Positions 8,587-51,332 of a stretch of 64,000 nt of DNA are shown piece after piece. Both the position numbers and the translations under genes were made by a program. The notes under the pieces were generated by a model that saw only the letters and a list, made by a program, of their open reading frames with translations, ran no database searches and was not told where the DNA came from. Source of the DNA: Xanthostigma xanthostigma (lineage: Eukaryota; Arthropoda; Insecta; Raphidioptera; Raphidiidae); assembly GCA_963575645.1 (NCBI GenBank), contig OY754468.1, positions 12,400,001 through 12,464,000 of the forward strand. The letters run 5' to 3'. Within the stretch, counting starts at the first letter, position 1; every line of letters begins with the position of its first letter.

Positions 8587-8617
<31 letters not shown>

Positions 8618-20214: not shown

Positions 20215-20360
20215 TATTGTTTTTGGGGAACATCGGCGCATGCGTAAAAGAATATATCTCTTATAATGTTGTTTTATATAATAATAATATAGTTTTTAAG
20301 ACGGTTTTTACTCTATCTATTTTTACTAGAAATTTTTGTTATTTTTTTGGGGAAAATCGG
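20215..20360. repeat. Degenerate repeat unit with 'cggcgcatgcg', left of satellite
   Basis: aacatcggcgcatgcgtaaaa followed by ttataatgttgttttatata; the same unit type recurs at 25040-25460 right of the satellite. Confidence 0.7.
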
Positions 20361-23300
20361 TGACGTCACTCTAAATCCAATATGGCGGACTTCTAAAGAT
20401 GGCGGACTAATTTTATTATGCTTTCCAACAATATGGGTATCAAATGAAAGGGCTTGCTGAGAATAACTCGAAAAATGAAGTGACGTCACTCTAAATCCAA
20501 TATGGCGGACTTCTAAAGATGGCAGACTAATTTTATTATGCTTTCCAACAATATGGGTATCAAATGAAAGGGCTTGCTAAGAATAACTCGAAAAATAAAG
20601 TTACGTCACTCTAAATCCAATATGGCGGACTTCTAAAGATGGCGGACTAATGTTATTATGCTTTCCTACAATATGGGTATCAAATGAAAGGGCTTGCTGA
20701 GATTAACTCGAAAAATAAAGTGACGTCAGTCTAAAACCAATATGGCGGACTGTTAAAGATAGCGGACTAAGTTTTTTATGCTTTCCTACAATATGGGTAT
20801 CAAATGAAAGGGCTTGCTGAAAATAATTTGAAAAATAAAGTGACGTCACTATAAATCCAATATGGCGGACTTCTAAAGATGGCGGACTAATTTTATTATG
20901 CTTTCCTACAATATGGGTATCAAATGAAAGGGCTTACTGAGAATAACTCAAAACATAAAGTGCCGTCACTCTAAATCCAATATGGCGGACTTCTAAAGAT
21001 GGCGGACTAATTTTATTATGCTTTCCTACAATATGGGTATCAAATGAAAGGGCTTGCTGAGAATAACTCGAAAAATAAAGTTTCGTCACTATAAATCCAA
21101 TATGGCGGACTTCTAAAGATGGCGGACTAATTTTATTATGCTTTCCTACAATATGGGTATCAAATGAAAGGGCTTGCTGAGAATAACTCGAATCATAAAG
21201 TGACGTCACTCTAAATCCAATATGGCGAACTTCTAAAGATGGCGGACTAATTTTATTATGCTTTCCAACAATATGGGTATCAAATGAAAGGGCTTGCTGA
21301 GAATAACTCGAAAAATAAAGTTACGTCACTCTAAATCCAATATGGCGGTCTTCTAAAGATGGCGGACTAATGTTATTATGCTTTCCTACAATATGGGTAT
21401 CAAATGAAAGGGCTTGCTGAGAATAACTCGAATCATAAAGTGACGTCACTCTAAATCCAATATGGCGAACTTCTAAAGATGGCGGACTAATTTTATTATG
21501 CTTTCCAACAATATGGGTATCAAATGAAAGGGCTTGCTGAGAATAACTCGAAAAATGAAGTGACGTCACTCTAAATCCAACATGGCGGACTTCTAAAGAT
21601 GGCGGACTAATTTTATTATGCTTTCCTACAATATGGGTATCAAATGAAAGAGCTTGCTGAGAATAACTCGAAAAATAAAGTGACGTCACTCTAAATCCAA
21701 TATGGCGGACTTCTAAAGATGGCGGACTAATGTTATTATGCTTTCCTACAATATGGGTATCAAATGAAAGGGCTTGCTGAGAATAACTCGAATCATAAAG
21801 TGACGTCACTCTAAATCCAATATGGCGAACTTCTAAAGATGGCGGACTAATTTTATTATGCTTTCCAACAATATGGGTATCAAATGAAAGGGCTTGCTGA
21901 GAATAACTCGAAAAATAAAGTTACGTCACTCTAAATCCAATATGGCGGACTTCTAAAGATGGCGGACTAATGTTATTATGCTTTCCTACAATATGGGTAT
22001 CAAATGAAAGGGCTTGCTGAGAATAACTCGAAAAATAAAGTTACGTCACTCTAAATCCAATATGGCGGACTTCTAAAGATGGCGGACTAATTTTATTATG
22101 CTTTTCTACAATATGGGTATCAAATGAAAGGGCTTACTGAGAATAACTCGAAACATAAAGTGACGTCACTCTAAATCCAATATGGCGGACTTCTAAAGAT
22201 GGCGGACTAATTTTATTATGCTTTCCTACAATATGGGTATCAAATGAAAGGGCTTGCTGAGAATAACTCGAAAAATAAAGTAACGTCACTTTAAATCCAA
22301 TATGGCGGACTTCTAAAGATGGCGGACTTATTTTATTATGCTTTCCTACAATATGGGTATCAAATGAAAGGGCTTGCTGAGAATAACTCGAAAAATAAAG
22401 TTTCGTCACTATAAATCCAATATGGCGGACTTCTAAAGATGGCGGACTAATTTTATTATGATTTCCTACAATATGGGTATCAAATGAAAGGGCTTGCTGA
22501 GAATAACTCGAAAAACAAAGTGACGTCACTCTAAATCCAATATGGCGGACTTCTAAAGATGGCGGACTAATTTTATTATGCTTTCCAACAATATGGGTAT
22601 CAAATGAAAGGGCTTGCTGAGAATAACTCGAAAAATGAAGTGACGTCACTCTAAATCCAACATGGCGGACTTCTAAAGATGGCGGACTAATTTTATTATG
22701 CTTTCCTACAATATGGGTATCAAATGAAAGAGCTTGCTGAGAATAACTCGAAAAATAAAGTGACGTCACTCTAAATCCAATATGGCGGACTTCTAAAGAT
22801 GGCGGACTAATGTTATTATGCTTTCCTACAATATGGGTATCAAATGAAAGGGCTTGCTGAGAATAACTCGAATCATAAAGTGACGTCACTCTAAATCCAA
22901 TATGGCGAACTTCTAAAGATGGCGGACTAATTTTATTATGCTTTCCAACAATATGGGTATCAAATGAAAGGGCTTGCTGAGAATAACTCGAAAAATAAAG
23001 TTACGTCACTCTAAATCCAATATGGCGGACTTCTAAAGATGGCGGACTAATGTTATTATGCTTTCCTACAATATGGGTATCAAATGAAAGGGCTTGCTGA
23101 GAATAACTCGAAAAATAAAGTTACGTCACTCTAAATCCAATATGGCGGACTTCTAAAGATGGCGGACTAATTTTATTATGCTTTTCTACAATATGGGTAT
23201 CAAATGAAAGGGCTTACTGAGAATAACTCGAAACATAAAGTGACGTCACTCTAAATCCAATATGGCGGACTTCTAAAGATGGCGGACTAATTTTATTATG

Positions 23301-24850
23301 CTTTCCTACAATATGGGTATCAAATGAAAGGGCTTGCTGAGAATAACTCGAAAAATAAAGTAACGTCACTTTAAATCCAATATGGCGGACTTCTAAAGAT
23401 GGCGGACTTATTTTATTATGCTTTCCTACAATATGGGTATCAAATGAAAGGGCTTGCTGAGAATAACTCGAAAAATAAAGTTTCGTCACTATAAATCCAA
23501 TATGGCGGACTTCTAAAGATGGCGGACTAATTTTATTATGCTTTCCTACAATATGGGTATCAAATGAAAGGGCTTGCTGAGAATAACTCGAAAAACAAAG
23601 TGACGTCACTCTAAATCCAATATGGCGGACTTCTAAAGATGGCGGACTAATTTTATTATGCTTTCCAACAATATGGGTATCAAATGAAAGGGCTTGCTGA
23701 GAATAACTCGAAAAATGAAGTGACGTCACTCTAAATCCAACATGGCGGACTTCTAAAGATGGCGGACTAATTTTATTATGCTTTCCTACAATATGGGTAT
23801 CAAATGAAAGAGCTTGCTGAGAATAACTCGAAAAATAAAGTGACGTCACTCTAAATCCAATATGGCGGACTTCTAAAGATGGCGGACTAATGTTATTATG
23901 CTTTCCTACAATATGGGTATCAAATGAAAGGGCTTGCTGAGAATAACTCGAATCATAAAGTGACGTCACTCTAAATCCAATATGGCGAACTTCTAAAGAT
24001 GGCAGACTAATTTTATTATGTTTTACAACAATATGGGTATCAAATGAAAGGGCTTGCTGAGAATAACTCGAAAAATAAAGTTACGTCACTCTAAATCCAA
24101 TATGGCGGACTTCTAAAGATGGCGGACTAATGTTATTATGCTTTCCTACAATATGGGTATCAAATGAAAGGGCTTGCTGAGAATAACTCGGAAAATAAAG
24201 TTACGTCACTCTAAATCCAATATGGCGGACTTCTAAAGATGGCGGACTAATTTTATTATGCTTTTCTACAATATGGGTATCAAATGAAAGGGCTTGCTGA
24301 GAATAACTCGAAAAATAAAGTTTCGTCACTATAAATCCAATATGGCGGACTTCTAAAGATGGCGGACTAATTTTATTATGCTTTCCTACAATATGGGTAT
24401 CAAATGAAAGGGCTTACTGAGAATAACTCGAAACATAAAGTGACGTCACTCTAAATCCAATATGGCGGACTTCTAAAGATGGCGGACTAATTTATTTATG
24501 CTTTCCTACAATATGGGTATCAAATGAAAGGGCTTGCTGAGAATAACTCGAAAAATAAAGTAACGTCACTTTAAATCCAATATGGCGGACTTCTAAAGAT
24601 GGCGGACTTATTTTATTATGCTTTCCTACAATATGGGTATCAAATGAAAGGGTTTGCTGAGAATAACTCGAAAAATAAAGTGACGTCACTCTAAATCCAA
24701 TATGGCGAACTTCTAAAGATGGCGGACTAATTTTATTATGCTTTCCTACAATATGGGTATCAAATGAAAGGGCTTGCTGAGAATAACTCGAAAAATAAAG
24801 TGACGTCACTCTAAATCCAATATGGCGGACTTCTAAAGATGGTGGACTAA
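20361..24850. repeat. 120-bp satellite, about 37 monomers, with 1080-bp higher-order repeat
   Basis: Exact 120-bp period. A typical monomer has tgacgtcactctaaatcca, atggcggacttctaaagatg, gcggactaattttattatg and gggtatcaaatgaaagggct. Diagnostic variants (atcataaag, taacgtcactttaaatcc, ggcggactta) recur every 1080 bp (for example 21809/22889/23969), so nine monomers form a higher-order unit, clearest from about 21540 to 24000. Since 120 is divisible by 3, long minus-strand frames stay open; these are not genes. Confidence 0.97.
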
Positions 24851-24852
24851 GT

Positions 24853-25036
24853 TTTTGACGTGATAACGTCTTATAAATTGATGAAACACCAGCTGCACGC
24901 ACGAAAAAGTGTAACGTTCCGCCTGACCCTGTGCGCGCAAGCGAGAGCGCAGTAATGTATTATTAAATATGATATTCGAGCGGAATACGTTATCACGTAA
25001 AACTATCGTCCGTAAACCGACTTTACAGACATCCAA
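24853..25036. mobile_element. Inserted element with 'acgtgataacgt' motif, copy 2
   Basis: Starts tttttgacgtgataacgtct exactly at the end of the satellite and ends at cagacatccaattttt. It is an internally shortened relative of 9222-9798. Confidence 0.65.
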
Positions 25037-28921: not shown

Positions 28922-31900
28922 TCAAAGTTTTTTTTCGCCAGGGACTCCGCGCAAAGATCCACCTTAAAACATAATATATAAAAATTTAAGAGTGTCTTAA
29001 TTTTCATTTCTCAAAATGATTTTTAAACATATATATAAAAATTTACCGGCTAACGCTGAACTGCTGGGCTTTATTTCAGACATATTATATTCTCTTTGCT
29101 GTTTTTCTAAAATTAATAAAACATTATTATAAAAAAATGCTATTTTTTTTAATAGCAAAATGAAAAGTGTAATTGGAACAAAAACTAGAACGGATTTATA
29201 GCTGACCATTTGTAGTTAATGAGCTAGTAACGATTTTACTTACAGTATTTCCTAAAACCTGAGTTTTTGTAAATTCATTAAGGGCACTACCCTGAACATA
29301 AAAACCGCAGTCTGGCAGCTGAGACCGGGGACAATGCGTAGACGGATCCGGTCTAAGCAATAAGTTCAGGTGCCCTCGAGCACAAAAATTCAAGTCTGGC
29401 ATTTCGTACCCAGAGCAACCTACGTCTGGCAAATGGCTGAACATGTCAAAATTCGTAGCTCCCTCAAAATATTCCATCACGGCTGATTTTTTCAAATTGG
29501 GTGTGTTTATGCCTGTACTAGATTTCAAAAAAAATCAGCCTTGAAATATATTTTGAGGGAGCTACGAATTTTGACATGTTCATCTCTTTGCCAGACGGAG
29601 GTTGCCGTGGGTACGAAATGCCAGACTTGAGTTTTTGTACTCAAGGACACCTGGACTTATCGCTCAGGAAATTTCAAACATGATAAAATATATTAAGTGA
29701 CACCTCCAGTTTGACATCTTGACCGGGTTCACTATCGCATTGTCCTCGGTCTCAGCTGCCTGCAGACTGCGGTATTTACATTCAGGGTAGTGCCCTTACA
29801 GACGGAGAGCTGGCTACGGAGAAAATGGGTGACTCGGTGCAGAGCTGAAAATTTGCAGAATAATAGGAAATAGTACAAATAAGTAGGGAAAAAGTTGCCA
29901 GAAGGCTAGGCGGAAGATAAAGAGCCGCCAGAAGGCGCTAATGTTGCGAAACATCTGTGCACTTTTGGCAATTTCTATACTTATTCTGTAATTCACAACT
30001 AGATTATATATTATATATATTATGCATTATATAGTTATAAGGGCATACTGAAAATTCAAACTTGATATAATAATTACATTCGACAAATATTCAAAATTAT
30101 TAATGACATTTTGATAGAAATAAAATCTTTCAAAATGATATTTGTCGAATGTAATTATTATATCATGTTTGAATTTTCAGTATGCTCTTATAACTGTATA
30201 ATGTATAATATATATAATATATAATCTAGTTTTGAATTACAGAATAAGTATAGAAATTGCCAGAAGTGCACTGATTTTTCGCAACATTAGCGCCTTCTGG
30301 CGACTTTTTATCTTCCGCCTAGCCTTCTGGCAATTTTTTCCCTACTTACTTATACTATCTTCTATTATTCTGCAAATTTTCAGCTCTGCACCGAGTCACC
30401 CATTTTCTCCGTAGCCAGATCTTAGACCATTAATGAACGTACAGAAACTCGGGTTTGAGGAAATACTATAAGTAAAATCGTCACTAGCTCACGGCTATTG
30501 GCTGAATTATGTAGAAATGCAAACACTTGAAATAATTCAACAGATTATTTTTTTTTATTTATAAATGTTTGAATTATCAAATGTTTGTGCTCCTGAACAG
30601 AAATAAAATTTCAATACTTACCCTTGTATGCTTCAGCTTGTTTGATTAAAATATTTCCGATTTCTTTAACCCACTTTTTCTTGACGTCCAACGAAATTGC
30701 TTCTAAAGTATGGTTGCAACCACGATATTTTCTAAACCAAGTAATAAACGTTTTTTCATCCTTATTACCAGCAGTCAAACCGACTTCCGACATTTTAAGA
30801 TTTCTTTTATATAGTGACTCAGATGGATTAGTCTGCAAAGGTTATTTAAATAAAATATAGTTTAAAAAAAACTAAAAAACACGCTTTATATCGCACTAAA
30901 AAGTAAAAAATAATTGTTTTAAAATAAGCTTAAAAAGCGTTGGGCGCTCGATGTACGAAAATGTGGAACAAAGCGCCCCACGCTTTTTAAGCTTATTTTA
31001 AAACAATTATTTTTTACTTTTTAGTGCGATATAAAGCGTGTTTTTTAGTTTTTTTTAAACTATATTTTATTTTTCACTTTTTAGTTTGAGGATCTATAAA
31101 AGAATTTATTAATCCTGGGGGTCCTAATAAGGATAATGGGAAACTGTTATCAAATTATTGCATTGTCATCGGTCCTTGATACGTATGCAAAGTTTCAAAT
31201 TAATCAGACTTCGGGAAATTGGTGAAAATTATGCTCAAAGATTCCGTTACGGACATACATATTTACAACCCAAACTAATATAAAGCGTTTAAAAATAATT
31301 TAGGCCTTACTTCTAGCTATACAAAAATCATAATATTGTGGAGAGGATTAATTTAATAACACGTTTCTACTAATTGCAAACATTTTTGAAACTTTTCAGA
31401 TCATAACAACAATGTGTCAGTTATTTTTTTATGTAACCATTATTATTGTTAAGATACACCAGGCGTCGGCAACCTGCGGATCTTTTGATACAAAGTTGCG
31501 GCTCTCCAGTTCCACACGCAAAAAATAATTATTTTATTATATAAGCCCTTAAAAATCGTCCAATCGATCCATGATTGAGCACCATGTTTATCTCTCAGCC
31601 ATTTCCACTCGCGTCTCACCCGCACCGCCCCCGTCGTTAAGTAATATTCGTTTGAAATTATTAAATTTACATGTCATAATGACGAACTTAAATTTAAAAG
31701 TCGGCATTTAAAATCTAGTTACCTAATTAAACAAAGCCATAAATGCTTAAACTGTTTTCCATTTACTTCTAAACACTGATGAGCTCTTCTAGATATGCTA
31801 TGGGTACCTCTAAGTATTTTCCGACAAAAAAAAACAATTGCAATTATTGAAAAAATATTGCGACATTTACCTATTATCGTTTAATTAATTAGGAAACTAG

Positions 31901-32945: not shown

Positions 32946-35900
32946 TATATTGCCACATGTAAAGAAAAACCAATACAATATTGACATTGTCATCATGAAC
33001 AAACATAGTATATACTTAAACAACAAATTCACCAACACTATAAAAGCATTTCTCTGTCAAAAACTGTTTTAGTTTACATTTAAAATTGTTTAAAAATTTT
33101 ATATCTTTTAAAGAATTTGGCAAACTGTTATATAGCCGTAGTTCCATACAAGGAGAATTTTTTCTAAACGGCATCAAATTTTGTTTAGGGACATATATAT
33201 CTCTATTTTGCCGTGTTGAATAATTATGATGTTCCCCAACTGTTTGATATTTATTAATATTACATTTAACATGCATTATAGCGGTATCCATATATAAACA
33301 CGGGACAGTTAAAAGATTGTTTTGCTTAAAAACTTCACGGCATGTATCTAAACGTCCGAGATTAAAAATTAGGCGAATATTTTTCTTTTGAAAAATAAAA
33401 ACTCTCTGAACATCAGAGCTACATCCCCAACAAAGGAAGCCATATTTTAAAATAGAGTATACTAAAGAAAAGTATACCGTTTTACGCACCGAAGTATCGG
33501 AAGTACTGCAACATATTCTGCGTAAAGCAAAAACGGATTTTGACAGCTTATTACATAAAACATCTATATGATCTGTCCATTTTATTTATATTTAATAGTT
33601 TCGCTAACCACGGTAGCATCATCAGGAAGTGATTAAAAGAGTATTTAAACTTTTTAATTATTTCACGACAATGCTATGAAATTTTGCAGAGAGAATTTTG
33701 TTTCTGGTTACTTTAGTATTCGGAAACTTACCTTACTGGGAATACAGAATAATATGGATTCTTCAAACAAGAACACCCTGTATAATACTCTACACTCAGT
33801 CTTATAAGTGACTTGAAATTCATCGTGTAGTAATAATTTTCCCTGTTCATTTAGATTCATCTGTAATTATCACAGAAAAAGTAAAAGAAATGGTGAAATA
33901 CATTTTTTTTTCAATTGCGACATTTTAAACTGTGTTCCAATAAATAGTTCTAGATGATAGATAGTCACTATTTTAGAATCTGTGAATGAGAGAGGGTACG
34001 AAAATATACCGGTGAGTGAGTAAGAGAGTTTCACTTCTACCGCGTGATCTTAAGTATTTTTTTATTTTTAATCGGAATATTTGAAATCTTTACAGGTACA
34101 AGTATAAACAAAATGAAAGCCGTTTCAAAAAACATGGCTGCAGCTAAATTAATGAAAATTCTAAAAAAACCAAAATGTTTAAACTTACATCGCACCCTTT
34201 GATCCCATCGACTTTTATCAAATCGTTTCCTCTTCGTAAATGATATTCCATTACTTCTACGGCCATTTGCAAAATTAAGAAGTCTTCACTTTCGGGAGAA
34301 GTGTGTTTTATGAGTTGATTTAATATCAGGGGATATTTTGCCAAGCGTTGAATCGGTTTCATAAGTTCACTGCTTAATCCTAAGGGCTGGCGAAGTTGTT
34401 TTCGTTTTTGCTGAAAGTCAGAGTGCTTTAAAACACTAAGTTTAAATTGTCGAAGTCCTTCTGAAACCTACACCTGAAAATTTTCTGAGCAAGATGTGTA
34501 CTACACAATTTCAGTGAATGTTTTTATGTTTTTTTTTTCTTCAAGAAGTCTTTTTTAATCTGATCAATGTTGAGATAGGTTTTAAGGTTAATATTCGGAA
34601 CACACTATTGAAGTTTGGAAATTCTTCCCGGAACTTATAAAAAATGAATGAATTTTAATTTCAAATTTAACCTACCTCAAAAAAAGGCTCGTAATTTTCA
34701 ATTAGAACATCGGATTTTGGTTTATTCCTTATATAAATGCTATACATTTCAAAGTATTTTACCTGAAAAGTAACTTTTTTTACTTCGTAAATATTCGCCG
34801 AAGAATCGACAATTAGATTGTGTAATCTATTTAGTGTCTATCCATCTATTGTCGATTCTTTGAAACGAGAAATATATCGAGCCTTAACAATTTTTCGCAT
34901 GTCTAAATGATCAATAAAAACAACCTCTCAGGCTAAACGCATATACCTGCTCCGTGGGTAAAAAACGAGAAAAATGTCTATAAATTTGTAAAGGGTAGTA
35001 TTTAAACGAGTGACTGTAAATTACAATTTTGGGTGACAAAAATAATCAATTTGGGTTACTGTATTACTAAGTGAGCGACTGACTGCGCGTGACGAGAAAA
35101 TAATAGTTGGGGGACTAAATTACTAAGTGAGTGACTAAATTTCTAAGTTGTTAATAGTTAATTGTTTGAATAGAACTGCGTTTTCTAAAAAATATATTTT
35201 TAATTGACTGTCAACTAAATATACATTTTTTAGAAAACGCAGTTCTTTTCAAACAATTAACTATTTAATTCGCATACCCCATTATCGTTCACCCCGGAAT
35301 TGTTTTTTTAAAAACTCTACGTTTGCCCCTTCCCGTTTCACTGCGAGACAATTCGCATACCCCTTTATCGTTCACCCCGGAATTACAATTCGCATACCCG
35401 TTTATCGTTCACCCCGGAATTACAATTCGCATACCAGTTTATCGTTCACCCCGGAATTATTTTTTTAAAAACTCCACCTTTGCCCCATCGCGTTTCACTG
35501 CGAGACAATTCGCATACCCCTTTATCAAAAAAGCGGTGGTTTTCAATCTTCATGAAAATGTGAGTTTTAAGTTGTAGTCTCAAAGTGAAAAAAAAAATAA
35601 AAAGTAAAAACAAAAGAATATATCTGTTTCCAAATTACCGAAGGCATTCTAATCGCTCACTTAGTAATTTAGTCGCTCACTTAGTAATTTAGTCAGTAGT
35701 CACCCAACTATTATTTTAATATCTCAAGTTATTAAAACAGTATCTCATCATCAGTCACAAAATATTTTTTTTATTCGACCGTTTTATAATTTCCCATTTA
35801 TAAATTTCTCATTTTTACGATGTCAAAAATCATCAATTTTCAAATTCAACTTTGCGACAAGAATTCGCAATTTTTTTAAATTGTATGAGCTAGAAAATTG

Positions 35901-38900
35901 ATGACTTTTGGCTTCGTAAAGTTGATCTCCTAATTAATCAATACAAAAGTCAACCAAACTGCAAACAAAAATTTGTATTAGAACCAGATAACCTTGTCAG
36001 TTAGTGGAATCTTCAGTAGCAAAAACAATTCCCGAATTGTAACAAACCTTTTAATTCTTGTTTCTCGCTATCAAGACGAGAAAGGCACCTCTTATTTTTA
36101 CAACAAAACTGAAATAGATTTTGCAATACAATTAAAATTTAATTAAACAAGCAGTATATTCGTACATTACTTATAAAGCAATTGCAAAGATCTTTGATAT
36201 TTTCAGCTTTCATCAACTGTGGAAGAAATATTCCCATGTGAAAATTACAAATGTTTCCTATATTTCCGAAAAATTGAAATTTCATTCCTTTTAATGAATT
36301 TGGAACGTCGTCCCTTTCTATTTCAGGTACATATTCCTGAAAAAAACATTCCGTTAGTAATGTCGTTCTTACTGGTGCACAAAAATATTTTTAGAGAGGA
36401 AACTTCTTCAATAAAAAAAGAAAAAAATAATAAAACTTTGCTAATTTTACGGCTATAACAAATTTAACTCACATTTTTTATCCGACTTAATGCTTCTATG
36501 TATGCAATTTCTGTGTCTATTAATTCTTTAATAATCGGTTTGATCCTAAGAAGAAATATATTTCACAGTTAATATTAATATTAATATTATAATACAGGCC
36601 CGTAGCCAGGTCCAAATCGCAGTACGGGCAAATAAGAACGAAGGACGGGCGAGATTATCTAACAACAAATCTATACTAATATATAAAGCTGAAGAGTTTG
36701 TTTGTTTGTTTGAACGCGCTAATCTCAGGAACTATTGGTTCAAATTGAAAAAAACTTTGTTTTTTGGATAGCCCATTTATCGAGGAAGGCTATAGTCTAT
36801 ATAATATCAGGCTACGACCATTAGGAGCGGAGCATTAATTAAAAAATTAAAAGGTTGCAAAATGTATCTCAAAAATAAGCTTCTATTCAGGTGAAATGCA
36901 CTAATTGAATATACTCATATTAGCGTTGTACGTACACAACGTTGGATGGCTCAATTGGTAGAGCATGCGACTGTCAATATCAGGGTCGTGGGTTCGAGCC
37001 TCACATTGAACGAATATATTTTTATTTTATTTTCTACATTGCTTTCTTCTAAGGCTTACATTTAAATTTATTTAAATTTTATTTAATTAATTAAAAAATT
37101 TTTATTAGTTAAAAAAAGTATAAATACTGCTTTTTATCGACAAAAACTTTTGAACGGTAACTCCGATCATCATGAAATTTGGACACAACATTCATCTCGG
37201 TAAACTAAGATGAATGTGTGCACTCATGTTCCTCCCTTCCCCATTCGTTCTTTTACACCCGGGTGAAACCGAACGGGACCGCTAGTGTTTCAATAAGTGT
37301 GAAAATCATACAAGCGACTTGCTAGTACGGGCAAACAAATCGCTAGTATACGGGCATCGCCCGTACATGCCCGTACTGCTATAATACTGTCTGTCGATTC
37401 CGTAATAACTCCTACATCCTTATTTCGATTTCAATAAAATTTGGTACTATAGGGTTCCTCGACTCAAACAAATTAAATAATAATTCAGTATCTCTGCAAT
37501 ATGTTTAGTATTCAACTAGCCGCTGCCCGCGACTCCGCACGCAATTGAGACAAAACAATGCTCTATACTAGAGGTTCCCAATTTTATTTGGCCATGGAAC
37601 CCTAATCGATCATACTTTTTTAGACGGAACCCTAGCTGACTATTTTGATAACAGAAGTGTTTACCTTGTAAAGGTGGAGCCTTTTCCAAGAACGTTTTAT
37701 TTCTCTCTGACAGACCGCGGAACCCCTGTGACCCTTTCATGGAACCGCAGGGTTCCGCGGACCACCTTTTAGGAATCGCTGCTCTATACAACAGTAGTAG
37801 AGCCTTCGACTCAACCGTATTACAGTATTTGAACAACATCTACCGCGAAAACCTACTGCACACTTAGATAGAACCAATTCTCTGTATTTACAAAGTTAAT
37901 TACGGAAGTCGAGTGAAGAATTTTGCGTCACTGTCTATAAAATTCCCACTTTTCATTGTGTAAACCTTGCGCCACACCTTGTATCAATTATCTCTTCTGA
38001 ATTGATAAACGTCTTTACCCACATATTTATTTTAAGTTATTTATCAAATAAGTAGGTAATAAAATTCATCACGGAACTAATTTCTGTTAAAAAATACTTA
38101 CACAATATTGTTGGAAGAAAATGAAATATTTCCTACAATCCAATCAGTTGATTTAAATGTCACATCGCAGTATATTTCCGAATCAGTAGCCGCTTGTGAA
38201 GCGTTTTTAAATTCCACGTCGCTATAAATTTCAAAGCTTGACTCAAGTCGTGAATCCGTAAAAGAATCCGTAATGCTATAATAATCACCACTGCACGACG
38301 CATATCTGTGTTTTCTATACTCAAAATCCGAATTCGACGAATCCATCTTGTCCCAAAATGAATTGCAAACTCCACTACAGTAGTACGAATCCCTTCTTCG
38401 AATATGTGATAATCGATTTCTAAAAGTTACACTGTCTTTCAAAACTTTGTTGCAAGTTCCAAAATAGATTATATCATCTTCTAACAATGAAATCAGCCAC
38501 GATTCATTGTTGAGACAAGAAAACTCAATTTGATAATCAGTGCCCAACTCAAGTTCTAATATACTGTTTTTGGTTTCGTGAAGGATGTTAGTGTCATCAT
38601 TTATTCCAAAATGTGCGTCAGTATAAATATTGTTGGTGTCATTTTGATCTTCACCACTTTCGTCATTAATTTGTACTGGGTTTATGTAATAATACAGTTC
38701 TTCGTTGTTCACGTTATTAACAATGGTCGAAGGCTCACCGTCTTGACTGTCAATGCTCACAAAAGTTCTCGATTGTTTCGTAACTTTCGGTTTATTATCT
38801 TGTTTCGGGTTCACGTAATAATACAGTTCTTCGTTGTTCACGTTATTAACAATGGTCGAAGGCTCACCGTCTTGACTGTCAATGCTCACAAAAGTTCTCG

Positions 38901-39621
38901 ATTGTTTCGTAACTTTCGGTTTATTATCTTGTTTCGGGTTCACGTAATAATACAGTTCTTCGTTGTTCACGTTATTAACAATGGTCGAAGGCTCACCGTC
39001 TTGACTGTCAATGCTCACAAAAGTTCTCGATTGTTTCGTAACTTTCGGTTTATTATCTTGTTTCGGGTTCACGTAATAATACAGTTCTTCGTTGTTCACG
39101 TTATTAACAATGGTCGAAGGTTCACCGTCTTGACTGTCAATGCTCACTAAACTTCTCGATTGTTTGGTAGTTTTCGGTTTATTGGCTTGTTTCGGGTTCA
39201 CGTAATAATATAGTTCTTCGTTGTTCACGTTATTAACAATGGTTGAAGGCTCACCGTCTTGACTGTCAATGTTCACAAAAGTTTGCGATTGTTTGGTAAC
39301 TTTCGATTCATTGGCTTGTTTCGGGTTCACGTAATAATATAGTTCTTCGTTGTTCACGTTATTAACAATGGTCGAAGGTTCACCGTCTTGACTGTCAATG
39401 CTCACAAAACTTCTCGATTGTTTGGTAGCTTTCGGTTTATTGGCTTGTTTTGGGTTCACGTAATGTTCTTCGTTATTAACTCCACTAACAGTAGCTGTGG
39501 GTTCAGCATCTGTATAAATTTGAGTATCAGTGTTTACAGATTTTTTCAATCTAGACTGTTTTGCGTTTTTCGGTTGACTCCCAGCTCGACTTAAGTTCAC
39601 ATATAACATATTAGAAATCAT
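28922..39621 (-). CDS. RhoGEF-2: DH-PH Rho guanine-nucleotide exchange factor with tandem YVNP repeats (837 aa, 9 coding exons)
   Basis: Coding exons on the minus strand: 39621-38102, 36545-36473, 36336-36166, 34762-34676, 34410-34189, 33860-33732, 30832-30622, 29106-29047, 28962-28922. Phases match those of its two neighbours and give 838 codons. Residues 1-506 carry a 43-residue tandem repeat with YYYVNP; DH is about 507-691 and PH about 692-804. Key signatures are DTEIAYIEAL (CR1), YIRNKPKSD, LMKPIQRLAKYPLILNQL (CR3), RVFLFEESILF and TWFRKY. The DH segment around residues 550-565 is the most eroded of the three: the usual FGN-x-EK-IY-x-FH reads FGNIGNICNFH. The donor after exon 3 is an unusual gtacga. 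An in-frame stop lies upstream of the chosen ATG, and a 7-codon uORF overlaps it. Predicted role: Rho GTPase activation, possibly recruited through tyrosine phosphorylation of the repeats (inference). Confidence 0.92.
29221..30490. mobile_element. 1.27-kb two-hairpin fold-back element in RhoGEF-2 intron 7
   Basis: Outer stem: 29221-29280 with 30430-30490. Hairpin A: 29280-29798, arms meeting near 29530. Hairpin B: 29810-30418, arms meeting near 30110. The twin 60-codon open frames at 29814-29996 (minus) and 30232-30414 (plus) are the two arms of hairpin B. No TSD is evident. Confidence 0.85.
30848..31073. repeat. Near-perfect palindrome of 226 bp next to a splice acceptor
   Basis: Arms 30848-30948 and 30971-31073 (for example cacgctttatatcgcactaa) pair almost without mismatch around a loop of about 22 bp. 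Its edge is 15 bp from the RhoGEF-2 exon 7 acceptor. Confidence 0.9.
31460..32364. mobile_element. hAT-type element, 905 bp, with perfect 8-bp target duplication
   Basis: The termini CAGGCGTCGGCAACC and (reverse) CAGGAGTCGGCAACC are flanked by AGATACAC at 31452-31459 and 32365-32372. It lies in the intron between RhoGEF-2 exons 6 and 7. No intact transposase. Confidence 0.92.
32858..32945. repeat. (AAT)n microsatellite, 3' tail of a LINE
   Basis: About 28 uninterrupted AAT units (ATT on the minus strand), directly following the 3' end of a LINE remnant on the minus strand. Confidence 0.95.
33016..33489 (-). pseudogene. Non-LTR retrotransposon (LINE) reverse transcriptase C-terminal remnant
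   Basis: The open frame contains YSILKYGFLCWG, VFIFQKKNIRLIFNLG, CREVFKQNNLLTVPCLY, HNYSTRQNRDIYVP and ELRLYNSLPNSLK, the arrangement seen at the C-terminus of insect Jockey/CR1-like LINE reverse transcriptases. No start codon or RT catalytic core remains: a 5'-truncated copy in a RhoGEF-2 intron. Confidence 0.88.
34998..35804. mobile_element. Repeat family G, copy 2 (inverted relative to copy 1)
   Basis: Contains the 113-bp palindrome (35153-35265), blocks of tcacttagtaatttagtcgc and the end cagtatctcatcatcagtca. It lacks the nested element of copy 1. It lies in a RhoGEF-2 intron, 236 bp past the exon 4 acceptor. Confidence 0.75.
35268..35530. repeat. Short tandem repeat 'ttcgcatacccctttatcg'
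   Basis: Four imperfect units of ttcgcatacccctttatcg plus ttcaccccggaatt, two of them with an extra A-rich spacer, inside family G copy 2. Copy 1 has fewer units. Confidence 0.8.
36670..37285 (+). mobile_element. Helitron, non-autonomous, 616 bp
   Basis: Starts TCTATACTAATATATAAAGC after a host A and ends in CTAG before a host T, with a GC-rich terminus (cccgggtgaaaccgaacggg). It contains a tRNA-like segment. It lies in intron 1 of RhoGEF-2. Confidence 0.8.
36941..37011 (+). tRNA. tRNA-Lys-derived sequence (pseudo-tRNA) inside a Helitron
   Basis: The D arm ggctcaattggtagagc and T arm gtgggttcgagcctcac (A and B box) are well kept. The anticodon stem has mismatches, the loop reads CTGTCAA (anticodon GTC), and a base is missing between acceptor stem and D arm. 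The variable and T region resembles tRNA-Lys. Probably not a working tRNA. Confidence 0.55.
37505..37560 (-). mobile_element. Helitron 3'-end fragment
   Basis: aactagccgctgcccgcgac resembles the CTAGT termini elsewhere in the window. The other end is not identified. Confidence 0.4.
38680..39500 (-). repeat. Coding tandem repeat, 129 bp (43 aa) per unit, in exon 1 of RhoGEF-2
   Basis: About 6.5 units of exactly 129 bp. The tyrosine of each Y-[VI]-N-P motif falls at residues 54, 97, 140, 183, 226, 269 and 312. Five units read YYYVNP, the first HYVNP and the last YYYINP; an extra YVNL sits at residue 7. The rest of each unit includes VSIDSQDGEPSTIV and a Lys/Asn/Gln-rich stretch. Units between about 38690 and 39080 are almost identical at DNA level, including synonymous sites, so the expansion is recent. 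The opposite strand is also open in one frame (38578-39150), a by-product of the repeat. Confidence 0.95.
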
Positions 39622-39641
39622 TTTTCTTCTTTATTTATCAT
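39618..39641 (-). promoter_or_regulatory. Short uORF overlapping the RhoGEF-2 start codon
   Basis: A 7-codon open frame (ATG at 39641, TGA at 39620-39618) ends in an ATGA overlap with the main ATG at 39621. A splice acceptor (ttattttag) lies immediately upstream of this uORF, suggesting that a noncoding 5' exon joins here. The arrangement would allow termination-reinitiation control; use in vivo is inference. Confidence 0.5.
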
Positions 39642-43058: not shown

Positions 43059-46000
43059 TTACTTTTTACTCTTCTTTGGTTTCCTTGATACCGTCAAGAA
43101 TCCATCTAGGATAGGTTTTTCTTTATTCATCATTTCTCCAGGAGTTCCGTGTAAAGATAATCCTGTTTAAATTTTAAACAATATTAGATCGTATTTGTTA
43201 CACTACAATAACCATTACTTTTCTCGTAAATTACCTTTTTTAATTTGACGATTAAGCTTATCAGTCTCATTTTTTATCGGTACGTAATTATGTCTGTCAA
43301 TTCCTTGTTCTTTCAATTCTATTTCCCTTTTTTCTGCAATAAAAAAAGTCAAATCAAGTTAGGTCGTAGAGTAGAAACGTAACAGCTCGACGTTTAAACA
43401 GTACGAGATCTTAGATTGTGAGAATCTTTGGTTTCAAATAATGATGATTCAAAATCATAAAGGTCGCTGCACACGAGGTTGAATTTACCGCTAGATTTGA
43501 CTACTAAATTTCTAGCGCTGGTTTTCTTGATTGATTTTGATTGCGAATGGCGTCTGTTATGACATAAAGTCGAGAGACGGGCGTTAAACGCATTATTATT
43601 ATTATTGCTTTTAGGTGCTCGTTTCACACGAGACGTCTTTTCATGCTTGTTTTGCAGGTAGGTTCGGTACGCGTGCAGTGATAGAACGGTAACAAAAGTG
43701 GACGTTCATTGTCTCTGAACAGAACTGTGTTTGTTTGTGGGTGTTTGTTCATGTCGCCCACGTGACAAGATACTGTTTCCTGATTGGTTCTTGTTCAGAG
43801 CTAGCAGAGGACCCAGCAAGAAAAATAGCCCCTGTTCTAATTTTAAAATCCATCTTATGAGCTAGCAGGCGAGCACGCAGTGACGTCATTTGCAGCCTCG
43901 TAGCCAGCCTGCCGGCCAGCAGAAGTCACAGCAGTGTTTCTTGCCTCGTGTCCAGCGGCCTTAAAATATACCTTTGTAAGTCACAGCCTGTTTGACTAAT
44001 ATCCGTTCGATTTCTTGCACCCATTGATTTTTGATTTCGCAGGTAGATGCCAAGAAAGTATACGTTTTTTTGGTGTTATATTTTCTATACCATAAAGAAA
44101 ATGTTAATCGACCTTTATCGGTCAGTCCTATGTCGCCAGTTTTTAGACTTTCAACATACCTATACGGTTGATTACGTTTCTGAAAGAAAGATGCATAGAT
44201 TGTAAATTATCATACACTTTTATTCTATACTGAGCATATGAATAAAATCGCAATTCAACCATTAGGGTGCAAACATATACTTCTGTCTTTTTTAAGCCGT
44301 AAGCACTGGCGTATCCAGGAGGGCAAAACAAGCACGAGGTACCCGCCTTAAGAAATTTCTAATTTGCCCCCTCCTGGGCCAAAATCTGGGTGCGTCCATG
44401 TTAACATCATAGAAAAAGACAAAGTTTTTGAAACAGAGATACTTTATTCAGATTGGATGCAAGTACATCAACCAATCCTATCATCGGAGAAATCAGGGAA
44501 TTACATCGAAAAAAAAGACGCAGATATATTTTCGATACGCTTTGTTGCGTTCACTCACCGCACATTGAGTAGAAAGACAATGATTCATATTGTAAATTAT
44601 AGACACAACACAATTTTCTTAAGAGAGCTTCCTTCCGCTTGTAATATACAAAATTTAAAAACAGAATGAAATCATAATAAAAACAGCGCGATTGCCACGA
44701 ATCAGGATATTGTGAATAACGGAATTGATCCGTTGAAAATATGACACATGATTATCCCATCCTTAACTTTAACGAATAAATACAGTATAGCCTTGTTTAC
44801 GTGCTAATTTAAAGCTCACCTTACACATCGTAGTAAATATAACAATTTCTTCAAATAAAAATACAGTCATTTTAGTATGCCAATATTGAGAATTATCATT
44901 GACGTGAAACATAGACTGCAACAAAAGCTGTCCTTGTTCCTTTAAATTTACCTGAAAATCAAAATCAATACAGTAGAAATTCTTTAACTCGAACCTCATT
45001 ATGTCGAAGAAATTCAAAAGACTCTAGAACTCGAATTATTTATACTCTATAACTCAAACTAAATACGAATTCTCTACAACGTACTGTGAATACATGTAAC
45101 TCGAAGTTCCAATCTCGCGAACTCTATATCTTGAACTAAGCGACGTCTACACTTTACTGTATATTAATGAAAATTTATTATGTTTAAGACTTCCTAACTC
45201 GAAGTTATAAAATTCTCAAAGAGCTAAAAAACAATGCCAAATTCAGGGTTGGTCCGTTGTTCAGATTTTTTTTTGCATAATCTCCCGCAATAATATCAAT
45301 TTATTGCAACGTATTTAACACATAGCGAGAAGTTTTAGAATTGGCTCACAAATCATTATTTTTACCCAAAGCCCTACCCCCAAAACAAGTGCACGGGAAG
45401 TATTTTGATAAACTGGAAAAACATGCGAACTTATGGAGCCTGTATCTCCCCAAGTCGCTTTGAGATAAAAGCTTGAAATTATTACAAGACCTTGATGAAT
45501 CGGACCTTAACGAGGTATACGATTTTCATGTCACTAGCTCAATGAGAATTTGACTTGGGTAGCTCCGAACATAAATAAATCCTGGAACGTGAGAGGCACA
45601 AACGTAGCATATTATTGATTTCCTTCAACTCAAATATTCCAGTGAAACTAGATCGTTTTGTAGACACGTTTCAAGTAAACATGTTCCCTCAACAAAGGAA
45701 CTTTTCCACTTCCGTTCCATCTTCGGAACTGCTTTGCACAAGGTCAACGGGGACAGCGAAATTACGAGGATGGTAAATAGGTCTTAGCTGTTCCAAATCT
45801 TCTTGACATCCGGGCTTGTAGACCGTGATGCATTGGTAGTAATACCAATGGACCACGGAATATAAGCTCAATGACCAAGAAAATTTAGGAGCCTGCACAC
45901 TTGGATAGGTCTTAAGTTGGTCTTGAATGTAGCAAGCAGTGATTTATTAATACTTACGTCACAATTTTTTATTTTCTCCAATAAAATAAGATTATCCCCT

Positions 46001-49000
46001 TGTCTTAAGTGTTTATTTACAGTTTCGAGTGCTTGTTTTAGTACCTCACATTCATCTGGTTTACGTGAAGATTTCTTAACTAAACGCTCCAAAATCAATA
46101 AATATTTGGCCAGTCTTTGAGTTGGTTTCATAAGCTCACTCGATAAATCCAAACGTGTTCCCAACTCCTTCTGTTTGTCCTAAAAAATAATGTCACGTTA
46201 TAAAAAATTAAATTAAGCTCTGAAATTACTACTAGGCCCTTATTTATTCTAGTTGCAATTCTACTCTCTTCTATTCTCGACAAAATATGTTCCCGAGCAT
46301 TTCGTTCCGGCTTTGAAACTGTTTATGCAGGCCTGAGAAATTGAGAAAAATCTTTTTCGAAATGTGGTAACGGAATCATCGAAGAAGATCTGAGCCCAGG
46401 GGTGACCATTGGATGTCAATGAAACAGGTCCTGATATCTGCTTCTAGGACTTTAGATGAAGTTGGGAAAATTTCTCTTCCACAATGGGCTAAAGCGAATA
46501 AATTATTGCAAGTTAATACTGGTCCTCAAAAACGCCACGTCACTACAAATCCATGCCCAGTTCATCAGACATTTGTTTTTTTGCAGAAAACGAAAGAGAG
46601 ATAGATAAATTCTAGTTAGAAACCCAATAAGAAACTGGACTCTTGTTCGACATTTTTCTTTAATACATATTCCAGAAAATAACAAGTTTTTTTTTTAATT
46701 TCTGTGTTCTGACCAATTACAAAAATACAGGTCGTTATAGTTTGCCCAATATCTTATTGCGGGATCTATGTGGAATTTTTGTGGCTACGTAAATATATTT
46801 ACCCGAAAAAATAATCCATATGCACTCAGCAATGAATTCGACGTTGGTTTGTTTTTGTTATAAACGCCATAAATATCTAAATTTTGATCCTAAAATATCA
46901 CAGATAAAAATTAAATAAATGAAGAAGGACTATTAGCCCAAGATCCCAGAGCCGCCAGACACAACCTTTTTTAAATAAATGAAACCTTACTTTTTGAGTA
47001 GTGTTTTATGTACTTAGAACGCTTGGCGTACCTCCATCATTGAGTCTGTGACCAAACATCCCCCCAGACGTAAAAAATAGTCAGCTGTTAGTATGAGCGC
47101 GAGAGCTTTATGACTATTTTTTACGTCTGGGGGGGATGTTTGGTCACAGACTCAATGATGCCAAGCGTTCTAAGTACATAAAACACTACTCAAAACGTAA
47201 GGATTCATTTATTTAAAAATAAGTTGTGTCTGGCGGTTCTGGGATATTACTCTATATTATTTATAGGGCTGAGGATATCTAAGGTCGTGGGGATTAATTA
47301 ATTTTTCTCAGTTCGTATTTCGAAACAATATTTAGATGACATTGTCGAGATCTCGTTACTATAAGTTTAAAACTTCTCTGAAATTGCGTGCTTAGTAGAA
47401 ATGCTATTACGAATCTTAATTGATAAAAGTATTAACTTTCAGTTTATAGATTAAATTAGTACTATGCAAAATAGTCCTGAAATTAGTGCCCTTAACAGTA
47501 GTCTTTCCAGAAATAAAAGAAAGAATCGGTCTTATTTTCGAGTCAAAGAATAAAATATATTAAATACTTACATTTCGTATAAAACACTGAGCTATTTCGC
47601 TCAAATTTCTTGCCTCCTGCAATTCTTTTAAGAAAACATTGCTATGGAAAAAGTAAATTTTTTCTACATTTCCAAATATTCCATACTTTTGACCTATTAA
47701 AACGCTTGGTACATCATCACGTTGCATTTCTGGTATGTACCCCTAAAATTTACGAAAATTCTTAGATAAATAAATAGCCAACGCACACGTATTGAAAATG
47801 GGCGATTTGGCAACTGCCATTTGAAATTTTTCCAGGGAGATTTAATCGCACTTTCGTCGTACGATCGATGCTAGAGTTGGGGAATAAATAACTTCACGAT
47901 GAAAAAATCACTGTGACCAGCCGTTTAAAATGATCTCTGTGATCTGACAAGATGGAACCACATTCCAAAGTAACGTATTTCGTTCCATGTTACCGCAATC
48001 ACGACGGTCGCTCCAACCGAGTAGCCGACGTGACGTCAGACCGAGTGTTTGCTCGGTCGGGCTCGACGTGACAAAGTCACTGTGATTTTGTATAACTGGA
48101 ATAACAGTCACTGTGATCACATAGTAACAACTTTTCTCATGTCTAATCGAAGCGTAGAATACAGTCTCATCAGAATTCATGGCATTGTGTTACAGTGTCG
48201 CGCGAAGATGCGACAAAGTGTGATATGTTGATATTTTGACAATCGCGCGTTCGCGATACACCAGTTGCGTATTAAAGCGAGTAGCGTGCTGGCTTACGCT
48301 GATGGTCTATCTGAATCGCACAATCGTGATACAAAAAGCTGGTTTAAAAACTTAAATTGTTACTTGCCTCAACAACTAATTTCAATGATTCCACATAGTA
48401 CATTTCTGTTTCCAGTAGTTCGTGTATAATAAAATATATTCTGCAAAAGAAACAGTGATATACAGTCTATCCCAGAAATTTGAAATCGAAAAGCAACATC
48501 AGATCATGATTATCAGATTAATGTAATGTCGTCGATACTACAAAAGTAAGCAAAAACTTCAAAGAAGCATATGGAAGTGGTTCAACATCAATCTGCAAGA
48601 TTTGATTCACAAATATATGAAGTTAAATAAAAAATGGAACCTTTATAGGATTACACGCTTGTTAGTCACAATCGAAGGATTAAATTCGTTTACAGTAAAA
48701 CCCAAAAATATAAATGTATCTACTAGCGGCCAGATCGGCTTTGCCTGAATTTATAGATTGCCAAGATTTTTTCGTCGACTTACGTTTCAAAATTTTATTT
48801 TAACTTTTATTTTAACGCGATAGTATATAGCCTTGTCCATCCTGAAGCTCCATTTTAAATATTGGCAAAAAAAAATTGAAATCCGATAAGTAGTTTTGGA
48901 GATTACTTCCTACATTTAAACTTACAAACTTTACCTCTTTATAATATTAGTATAGATCTCTTTGTATTCGGTGGTCCGAGCAGGAAGTAAGAATTATTTT

Positions 49001-51332
49001 TTTCAAAATTTTCTTACGTAATATTCGAAATTTTCTTGAAAACATCTCTAGCCATCGACGTACCCAGGAGAAGGCAGAGGGGGGCAGCTGCCCCTCCCTG
49101 GATTTTGGTAGACGTCATAAACCGTTTTGCTGCAGATCCTCGAAAATTATTTTTAAAATAGACGTCTAATATATAAATTAATATTTATGTTTATTTATTT
49201 AATTTCCTATAAAACAGAATCTCCCGCGGGCGTTTCCCCTACACACTACAAACACCTAATGTTTCGTGTAGGTGGATTTGTGAAGTGTATAGGGCAAATA
49301 AGCGGGGGGGCTTAAGAAATTTCTGATTTGCCCCCCCCCTGAGCCAAAAGCTGGGTACGTCCATGTCTCTAGCTTAAAAAATTGATATTACTAAATGTAG
49401 TACATGACAAGGATTTTACAGGGGAAGTAAACTGTTTTGATCAATATATTTTTAAGTTCTAAAATCTCAGATATTTAGGCTAGTAAATGTCTTTTGAAAT
49501 GAATTTTCCTGCACGTTTTATCTGACATCTCTTTTAATATCAAAGTTCTCAATAAAAACATATAAGGAAATTGTCAATTTAGTAGATAAATACTATCTCA
49601 AGCGATAGTCTGAGATTGATAATAGAGGTAGGCTACATAAAACCATTGATCTCTAATGTTTGGATGGTGTACAACGCCTGAAACTTTTCAGGACGTCGCG
49701 TCGGCAAGACGTACTGAGGGAACCTCTGGGTAACAATTTTAGCGCGAAATTTGAATTATCAATACATTTACCGCACGCTCGGTTATACAAGGTGTATCAC
49801 AGAAGTGACAACATAAAAATATAATTAAAGTAACAAGGACGACACAAATTGAAGAGGTTTTCCTATGTGCTTAATTATGTGATGCATCATGCATCCTGTA
49901 TAAATATGTTTTGCCTTTAACGCTATGTTTGTTTAACAATCTGATAACACGGGAATTATCCTAGATTTGTAACTAAGAAACCCAGATTGTAATCCACAAG
50001 GAGGTAATTTCCCAAGAAAAAGTTTAGATAAGGGTTCCGATTTCATGAATTCCGAAAAAATCCTGTAACCACAATATAAGCAGAGAAAAATGAAATTTGT
50101 CTAGGCAAAAAAATCGAAAAAAAAATGGGACATTTTTAGGCAGAAACATTTAAATACTTTCGAAGTATTATTCCCAACAAAAATGTAACCGTCATATTAT
50201 CCTATTTGTAATCCAACCATCAAAAATAAATATGAAGCTATATAATAGACTGGCTTTACACAGTGGCTAATGACGTGTGTTGTCGAGCGTCTATAATCGG
50301 TATATAAAATGCAATATCAACTTACTCATCGGTGAAATTATGTTTTTTATTTTCCTTCACGGCATTTTTGTCTTCTTTATTTTTCGAATTAGAATCTTTA
50401 CGTAAAGACTTTGTGATCTTAAACAAAAACGACTTATTCGTATTTTCAGTTTTCGATTCAGCATTCGAAGACTGCGCTGAACCACGTTCAACTATTTTAC
50501 TTGAAGAAGGATTGCCAACTAATGCAGTGGAATTTTTGTTTGCGCACTTTTGATCAAAACCATTGAACAGAAAAGAATTATTTGATGTTTCTCTATTACT
50601 TGATATGACATCATTGTCAGTTTTCAACGCATGTCTTGTTTTCGAAACTTCAGTCGATTTGGGTTTGTCGTTCCAAATAGCAACGTCACAGTATATTTCA
50701 GGTTCAGCATCCTCATCACTATCGTCAGAATACATATTTTTAACATCGAGATCTCTGACGTGAAAGCTTTTGCCTTTCGTTGAATAGTTCTGTTTGATTT
50801 CTTTGATATTCCCTCGTTTCAAAGGATTGCTCGCACTGCGTCTTACCATTCTGCAATCACTCCTTTCATAATTATCTTGTTTGGGTTTATCCAACACTTT
50901 TGGTGTGAATTTGTATTTTATTGATGAGTCTACAATACATTTTCTCTCACTTAAAATTTTTTCTAGTTCACTTGGCTCTCTGTCATTTCCGCAGTTAAAT
51001 CTTAACGGTTTATTGGATTTGCTTCCAGTTCTTTTTAATAATTGAGGCTTACATGATGAGTCAACAATAGATTTTCGCCTATTTAAAACAATTTCTAATT
51101 CAGTCTGTTTGGAACTCTCTTCATTTTCAAATCGGCCATTTGCAGTTGAATTGTTAGACATACTTCTTCTATATTTTTTTTCTTTGAGTTGTGATTTCAA
51201 TTCTTTTTCGTTGATTTGTTGAATTTCAACAAAATCCAATTTTTCCCATGAATCAGTTCTCTCACCTAAACCACTTTGATGAGAAATATTAACTCCACAT
51301 AAATTGTTTAACACAATATTTTTATTGTTCAT
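43059..51332 (-). CDS. RhoGEF-1: DH-PH Rho guanine-nucleotide exchange factor, puratrophin-1/PLEKHG4-like (700 aa, 9 coding exons)
   Basis: Coding exons on the minus strand: 51332-50326, 48440-48368, 47742-47572, 46889-46803, 46179-45958, 44951-44820, 44179-43972, 43333-43235, 43162-43059. They join to 701 codons ending in TAA. Residues 1-335 form a charged, Ser/Asn-rich region holding a duplicated motif (77-93 and 121-137) and several RRxS sites. DH is about 336-520: LLETEMYYVESL (CR1), IFGNVEKIYFFH, YGVYNKNKPTSN, LMKPTQRLAKYLLILERL (CR3). PH is about 521-633: VNLKEQGQLLLQ, VFLFEEIVIF, LWYRKY, and the terminal-helix Trp in NQWVQEI. The tail of about 67 residues contains SLHGTPGE. Exon 2 ends in a non-canonical GC donor. 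The ATG has an in-frame TAA shortly before it. MITEs lie very close to the exon 6 acceptor and the exon 7 donor. It is probably a working paralogue; the substrate GTPase cannot be read from sequence. Confidence 0.92.
43455..43964. mobile_element. 'ctgcacacgag' MITE ending 9 bp from a splice donor
   Basis: Left end aaggtcgctgcacacgagg, right end cctcgtgtccagcggcctt. The flanks aaaatcat and aaaatata may be a worn 8-bp duplication. The RhoGEF-1 exon 7 donor is at 43971, so only about nine intronic bases of host sequence remain. Confidence 0.8.
44213..44585. mobile_element. Interspersed repeat H, copy 2
   Basis: Same order of blocks as 17530-17895 (ttttattctatactgagcat to caccgcacattgagtaga), in the intron between RhoGEF-1 exons 6 and 7. 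Confidence 0.7.
44971..45159. mobile_element. Tigger MITE (189 bp) abutting a splice acceptor
   Basis: CAGTAGAAATTCTTTAACTC and (reverse) CAGTAAAGTGTAGACG ends with TA on both sides; the interior keeps ctcgaa-type steps. Its edge is 19 bp from the RhoGEF-1 exon 6 acceptor (exon starts 44951). Confidence 0.8.
45780..45893. mobile_element. Relic of the 4482-5022 fold-back family
   Basis: ccaaatcttcttgacatccgggcttgtag and aataccaatggaccacgg match the arms of that element. It ends 64 bp beyond the RhoGEF-1 exon 5 donor. Confidence 0.6.
46936..47250. mobile_element. Fold-back MITE with 'agatcccaga-ccgccagac' ends, copy 1
   Basis: Arms run from agatcccagagccgccagac inward through acttagaacgcttggc to cagacgtaaaaaatagtc and back; the loop is about 30 bp. 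It lies 50 bp upstream of RhoGEF-1 exon 4. Confidence 0.88.
48366..48367 (-). other. GC (non-GT) splice donor, RhoGEF-1 exon 2
   Basis: The exon ends in GAG followed by gcaagtaa. The flanking bases otherwise match the donor consensus, and the same boundary is gtaaaa in RhoGEF-3 and gtgagt in RhoGEF-2. GC-AG introns are a known minor class that needs strong flanking pairing, as here. Confidence 0.75.
48723..48956 (-). mobile_element. Helitron, minus orientation, 234 bp
   Basis: On the minus strand it begins TCTATACTAATATTATAAAG after A and ends CTAG before T. It represents the empty-site version of the Helitron at 15860-16580. In intron 1 of RhoGEF-1. Confidence 0.8.
49050..49370. mobile_element. 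Repeat related to family H
   Basis: Two C/G-rich blocks, cagctgcccctccctgg and tttgccccccccctgagcc, with ccaaaagctgggtacgtcca as in family H. In intron 1 of RhoGEF-1. Confidence 0.5.
50922..51104 (-). repeat. Internal duplication in exon 1 of RhoGEF-1
   Basis: Residues 77-93 (TELEIVLNRRKSIVDSS) and 121-137 (SELEKILSERKCIVDSS) are a duplicated 17-residue motif spaced 44 residues apart. The motif is not present in the other two RhoGEFs, so it arose in this copy or was lost in the others. Confidence 0.85.

Follow-up and report, generated by a model that had tools for sequence, protein, structure and literature searches.

Background

By the likeness of their DH-PH modules, the described proteins nearest to the gene considered here are Trio GEF2 (expectation value, E, 7.2e-39), ARHGEF25, also called p63RhoGEF (5.8e-38), and Dbs (1.6e-35). 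The gene, called gene B in what follows, is a predicted RhoGEF of the raphidiopteran insect Xanthostigma xanthostigma, encoded on the minus strand of a 64,000-nucleotide stretch of contig OY754468.1 (positions 12,400,001 to 12,464,000; assembly GCA_963575645.1). That whole stretch is the window, and the positions below refer to it. Gene B differs from the three proteins in that its long N-terminal exon carries a tandem array of tyrosine motifs and in that it exists in three tandem copies. It is the middle one of these, which share a common strand, and it alone has the array. Gene B is presumably also akin to the insect puratrophin-1-like proteins, a name that was given by no search.

The array has its own parallels. 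LAT, a small adaptor of the membrane, offers Grb2 several phosphotyrosine pYxN sites along a single disordered chain, and gene B is like the LAT-type adaptors in having several YxN; the sites of LAT, however, are few. In p130Cas/BCAR1, too, one chain carries many spaced YxxP tyrosines, the number in Cas substrate domains ranging from 6 to 25 by species according to PMC5043372. Gene B has seven, but here the repeat forms part of the exchange factor's own chain, and its units are near-identical tandem copies. An N-terminal SH3 domain, as in Cas, was not found above cut-off in the Pfam scan of exon 1, nor was a C-terminal FAT-like domain found in the gene B exons scanned, the last exon or exons not having been located. 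The one match in exon 1 with SH3 in its name lies within the array and is to SH3_13, which is a helicase domain of the RecD-like kind (E 0.02; 15.1 bits, the cut-off being 41). Gene B is not filed as a Cas protein.

A third parallel is the Chlamydia effector TARP. According to PMC2279300, its tyrosine-rich units, repeated in tandem and each about 50 residues long, vary in copy number, are phosphorylated and are linked to Rho-family exchange factors, while Grb2 binding to TARP peptides was not above background. Unlike gene B, TARP comes from a bacterium and works by recruiting exchange factors separate from itself; it serves for comparison only, no homology being claimed. A RhoGEF with such a tyrosine array did not turn up in the open-licence literature searched, in keeping with the original prediction, made from the DNA alone, which knew of no described RhoGEF of this layout.

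The tyrosine array

Exon 1 of gene B (38102 to 39621, minus strand, as are all features of the gene) is a single open exon; it has 506 whole codons and two bases of one that the intron divides, and it contains the whole array. Translation probably begins at the ATG at 39621; an in-frame stop ends nine bases upstream. Reading by eye also revealed a short upstream reading frame (39618 to 39641, minus strand); its ATG is at 39641, and its TGA shares sequence with the start codon of gene B.

In the translation, YVNP stands at residues 54, 97, 140, 183, 226 and 269, YINP at 312 and YVNL at 7, with 43 residues from one YxN to the next from residue 54 through 312. These are exactly the positions and the spacing originally predicted. 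The even spacing lends the original prediction no separate support: it is the direct outcome of the duplication in tandem of a 129-base-pair unit. The DNA repeat spans 38678 to 39464 (6.1 copies, 95% matches, Tandem Repeats Finder score 1378). Within it, units 1 to 6 (38689 to 39462) have 43 codons each and open with YVNP, and the tyrosine motif of each unit reads EELYYYVNPKQ. Units 4 to 6, which open at Y183, Y226 and Y269, show no difference over their 129 base pairs, and the repeat ends in a terminal motif, YINPVQ (residues 312 to 317; 38671 to 38688).

The YVNL at residue 7, which the original prediction lists in addition to the evenly spaced motifs, is indeed present but is no separate site; it opens an older, diverged unit, here unit 0 (residues 7 to 53; 39463 to 39603). 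The protein alignment of residues 7 to 52 with the repeat unit scores 72, while the maximum among 2000 shuffles was 52, and a chance origin of this YVNL is thereby ruled out. Altogether, all eight sites have YxN, and seven have YxxP. Eight YxN in the exon, against a shuffled mean of 3.84 (p 0.028), is by composition only mildly unusual, because the exon is rich in tyrosine and asparagine and the copies are not independent. The significance rests in the repeat, not in the number of motifs.

The unit was found nowhere else in the genome. One 129-base query, run against the organism's own 623 megabases by a search that passes over simple repeats and very common words, gave six matches, all at the gene B array, and the exon 1 protein matched only itself (two candidates scored, E up to 1). 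Since both unit and protein match only this place, the array looks like a local expansion rather than a dispersed satellite. Exon 1 has no Pfam match above its cut-off. The weak matches to the array (sCache_like 3.5e-5, PHROG 8.4e-5 and others) fell below cut-off or had no single stretch that passed, and were put down to repeat artefacts; four PDB chains, mostly encapsulins, matched exon 1 at E 0.6 to 0.99 and were set aside.

The predicted RhoGEF

The gene model bears out the placing of the array ahead of a RhoGEF domain. From its GTAAGT donor, exon 1 joins in phase to six further exons, each flanked by an AG acceptor and a GT donor, to give 804 residues with no stop. The DH domain is predicted to begin in exon 2 (36473 to 36545), which encodes its first helix (KELIDTEIAYIEAL), and to continue through exon 3 (36166 to 36336; its donor, GTACGA, is the weakest among these exons, and its single-exon Pfam match is below cut-off), exon 4 (34676 to 34762), placed by the splice model, and exon 5 (34189 to 34410), which contains LSSELMKPIQRLAKY. 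The first half of the PH domain is assigned to exon 6 (33732 to 33860) by profile scan and splice model, and the second half to exon 7 (30622 to 30832; donor GTAAGT).

Pfam matches to single-exon open frames (PF00621 on exon 5 at 9.8e-13; SOS1_NGEF_PH at 6e-8 and 6.7e-9) agree with the exons joined after exon 1, whose alignment to Trio GEF2 extends over 289 residues. Among PDB entries, 41 distinct sequences matched the module at E no greater than 0.001, headed by Trio GEF2, ARHGEF25 and Dbs. By both Pfam and the joined-exon alignment, the DH domain is followed directly by the PH domain, as in the Dbl family, and gene B is a predicted RhoGEF with an intact DH-PH module.

Translated comparison of the three stretches downstream of genes A to C gave weak matches, and no 3' exon was found past 30622 or its counterparts; the stronger matches between the A and C stretches (best 3e-12) were taken for dispersed repeats. 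The sixth intron of gene B, which precedes exon 7, holds an open frame (33016 to 33585, minus strand) with no Pfam match at E 0.01, which presumably resembles the end of a long interspersed nuclear element reverse transcriptase.

Constraint on the repeat unit

Unit 0 was compared with units 1 to 4 over 40 aligned codons each. Nonsynonymous divergence (dN) was 0.34 to 0.36 and synonymous divergence (dS) 1.31 to 1.57, a dN/dS of about 0.22 to 0.26. At a nucleotide identity of 63 to 65%, unit 0 keeps YVN and 20 or 21 of the 40 aligned residues.

Units 1 to 6 vary at 13 codons, five of them only silently; the other eight, at unit positions 7, 9, 10, 12, 17, 18, 19 and 21, differ in the amino acid encoded. 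All eight fall within one arc of 15 codons, the linker, out of the 43 (p 0.0009 for random placement), while the silent-only codons span 29, with one of the five inside the arc. When the 13 variable codons were relabelled, 10 of 1287 arrangements were as tight. The remaining 28 codons, which include DSQDGEPSTIVNNVNNEELYY and YYYVNPKQ, have four silent changes and none that alters an amino acid. This suggests protein-level constraint on the motif-bearing core. The evidence is graded as only moderate, because the division into core and linker was made post hoc and the copies share a history.

Possible roles of the array

YVNP, as read from the translation, fits two SH2 rules together. The Drk SH2 domain recognises pYXNX (PMC11203457), and the Crk SH2 domain binds pYxxP (PMC5043372). 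The motif had been predicted to be of the Grb2/Drk type, which the first rule supports. Since YxN is found at all eight sites and YxxP at seven, the exception being the oldest unit with its YVNL, Drk is slightly favoured.

A search of the genome for the SH2 family gave 33 matches at E no greater than 1e-6, of which 25 were inspected as loci. One exon is taken here to be Drk-like, its best PDB match being labelled GRB2 (1.9e-20), and one Crk-like, its best match being CRK-II (3e-9), with p85 close behind (9e-9).

The best single explanation of these observations, plausible though put forward tentatively, is that the array docks SH2 adaptors, Drk (the insect Grb2) first among them. One RhoGEF paralogue, gene B, has gained 43-residue units, arrayed in tandem, within the long exon that encodes its N-terminus. 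Tyrosine kinases would phosphorylate the EELYYYVNPKQ sites, and the phosphorylated array would act as a multivalent docking platform, its eight Y-x-N sites supplying the several that a multivalent, LAT-like Grb2/Drk scaffold has. Several adaptors might then gather on one DH-PH exchange factor, or carry it to the membrane, with some effect on Rho. The proposal of a Grb2-docking array stands insofar as the repeat is in frame with a predicted RhoGEF, the motif fits, the genome has a Drk-like SH2 exon and the core appears constrained; it had overlooked the fit to Crk.

Several observations weigh against docking. The exon taken to be Drk-like has just 40 residues, and SHP-2 (3e-16) outranks the other GRB2 entries (2e-11). 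Genes A and C do without an array, which is therefore not essential for this type of RhoGEF. YVNP and SH2 were not mentioned together in the literature searched. The core of about 28 residues is wider than an SH2 ligand requires, both tests of constraint are small, and recent duplication with homogenisation would preserve any motif. Finally, a single-sequence AlphaFold2 model builds beta strands over residues 61 to 310, YYY included, with a block predicted local distance difference test (pLDDT) score of 52 to 78, which weighs, at low confidence, against a simple disordered-motif reading.

The strands raise the prospect that the core of 28 residues (DSQDGEPSTIVNNVNNEELYYYVNPKQ) acts as a repeat whose role, structural or in binding other proteins, needs no tyrosine phosphorylation, for example a beta-stranded solenoid with its tyrosines partly buried. 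The width of the constrained stretch, greater than that of a linear motif, would be accounted for, and the model predicts about three strands per unit, one of them over LYYYV. However, AlphaFold2 without an alignment is unreliable on near-perfect repeats and tends to build beta solenoids from them. The top model has a mean pLDDT of 46.9 and a predicted template modelling score of 0.49, falling mostly below 50 outside residues 61 to 310, and it is the only one of five with a mean above 35 (the other four range from 26 to 35). Composition points the other way as well. The Uversky index of residues 54 to 311 is -0.13, on the disordered side, while that of the DH-PH module is +0.13; residues 351 to 410 are on the folded side by mean charge and hydropathy. 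No relative of solved structure was better than E 0.6. A structural repeat seems unlikely.

Or perhaps the array is a coding minisatellite that slippage or unequal exchange enlarged without breaking the frame; it would be merely tolerated, its motif inherited from the founding unit. The unit length of 129 base pairs is a multiple of three, the DNA identity of units 4 to 6 implies recent growth, no other place in the genome matched the unit and the paralogues manage without it. Against this, amino-acid changes avoid the core, and dN lies well below dS between unit 0 and units 1 to 4. Although these objections rest on small tests and a division of the unit made after the fact, mere tolerance is judged improbable.

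A Crk-type YxxP substrate domain like that of p130Cas/BCAR1, whose phosphorylated YVNP sites would gather Crk and, with it, the partners of Crk's SH3 domains at the RhoGEF, would suit the seven YxxP of exon 1 (shuffled mean 1.26; none of 5000 shuffles as high, the copies not being independent) and the exon taken to be Crk-like, but it is rather improbable, as the oldest unit, YVNL, fits pYxN and not pYxxP, and the asparagine at +2 is kept in all eight.

Docking of adaptors, if true, would make gene B a natural case of an exchange factor whose number of adaptor sites depends on how many copies its tandem repeat has, and would permit a direct test of how Rho signalling is tuned by the valency of phosphotyrosine sites and by their spacing. 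A study of vaccinia A36 (PMC9333988) reports that signal output depends on where the Nck and Grb2 sites lie relative to each other. The three tandem paralogues, one with the array and two without, offer a built-in comparison. A bolder proposal, and a doubtful one, is that tandem duplication in one insect paralogue built a Cas- or LAT-like phosphotyrosine array onto a DH-PH module, that Rho activation came to depend on clustered Drk, Crk or both, and that copy number serves as an evolvable gain control.

Exon 1 holds a second class of tyrosine motif. Four Y-x-D-[VA] motifs occur, all of the form IYxD[VA]: IYTDA at residues 35 to 39, within unit 0 (39505 to 39519), IYTDA at 332 to 336 (38614 to 38628), IYSDV at 465 to 469 (38215 to 38229) and IYCDV at 483 to 487 (38161 to 38175). 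For the pattern Y-x-D-[VAIL] the shuffled mean is 0.48 (p 0.0012). They are presumably like the YDDV sites of the ADAP type. The hexapeptide EIYCDV is common to the first exons of A (50682 to 50699) and B (38161 to 38178), both on the minus strand, which otherwise align poorly.

Tandem paralogues and genomic setting

Paralogues A (43972 to 51332) and C (3067 to 14375), both on the minus strand, have the same seven-exon layout as gene B, with no YxN in exon 1 of A and two isolated YxN in that of C. Across the three genes, exons 2 to 7 measure 73, 171 to 174, 87, 219 to 222, 129 to 138 and 208 to 211 bases, and DH-PH identity is 43% between A and B, 48% between A and C and 46% between B and C. 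First-exon comparisons of B with A and with C gave E 0.001 or worse, and an A-C match at 1e-8 was not relied on, being of low-complexity sequence and scored with composition statistics switched off. Over the cluster as a whole (3067 to 51332, minus strand), the DH-PH modules are conserved, while the N-termini change fast and the first exons barely align.

As a genome query, the DH-PH module of C gave 24 matches, the nearest outside the cluster lying on C4 at about 35,042,364 to 35,043,050 (identity 57% for its first DH piece and 47% for the following one). In the 20 kilobases that include this relative and the region upstream of it, minus-strand open stretches of at least 40 residues contain neither Y[VI]N[PL] nor IYxD[VA]. 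By these scans, the array is specific to gene B among the cluster and the C4 relative. A motif scan of 10 kilobases on either side of the window gave no fourth tandem copy. Relatives were also sought in contig collections, which are viral and prokaryotic and so have little bearing on insects: four pattern matches in viral contigs and five in genome contigs, none confirmed. Rfam and tRNA scans of the window gave nothing.

Some minor features of the window were also noticed. Exon 2 of gene A apparently ends in a GC donor (GCAAGT) at 48367, minus strand. Exon 1 of gene C (13009 to 14375, minus strand) has an internal duplication of its own, with LETVSENSNRSS..SELLFE occurring twice. Between B and C lies a 120-base-pair satellite (20360 to 24855; 37.5 copies, 95% matches) with stop-free minus-strand frames of 288 residues; the Pfam matches to one such frame fall short of cut-off and appear to be artefacts of the repeat. 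Upstream of A, an open frame of a neighbouring gene (54727 to 55236, minus strand) encodes a CRAL/TRIO domain (PF00650, 3.1e-21).

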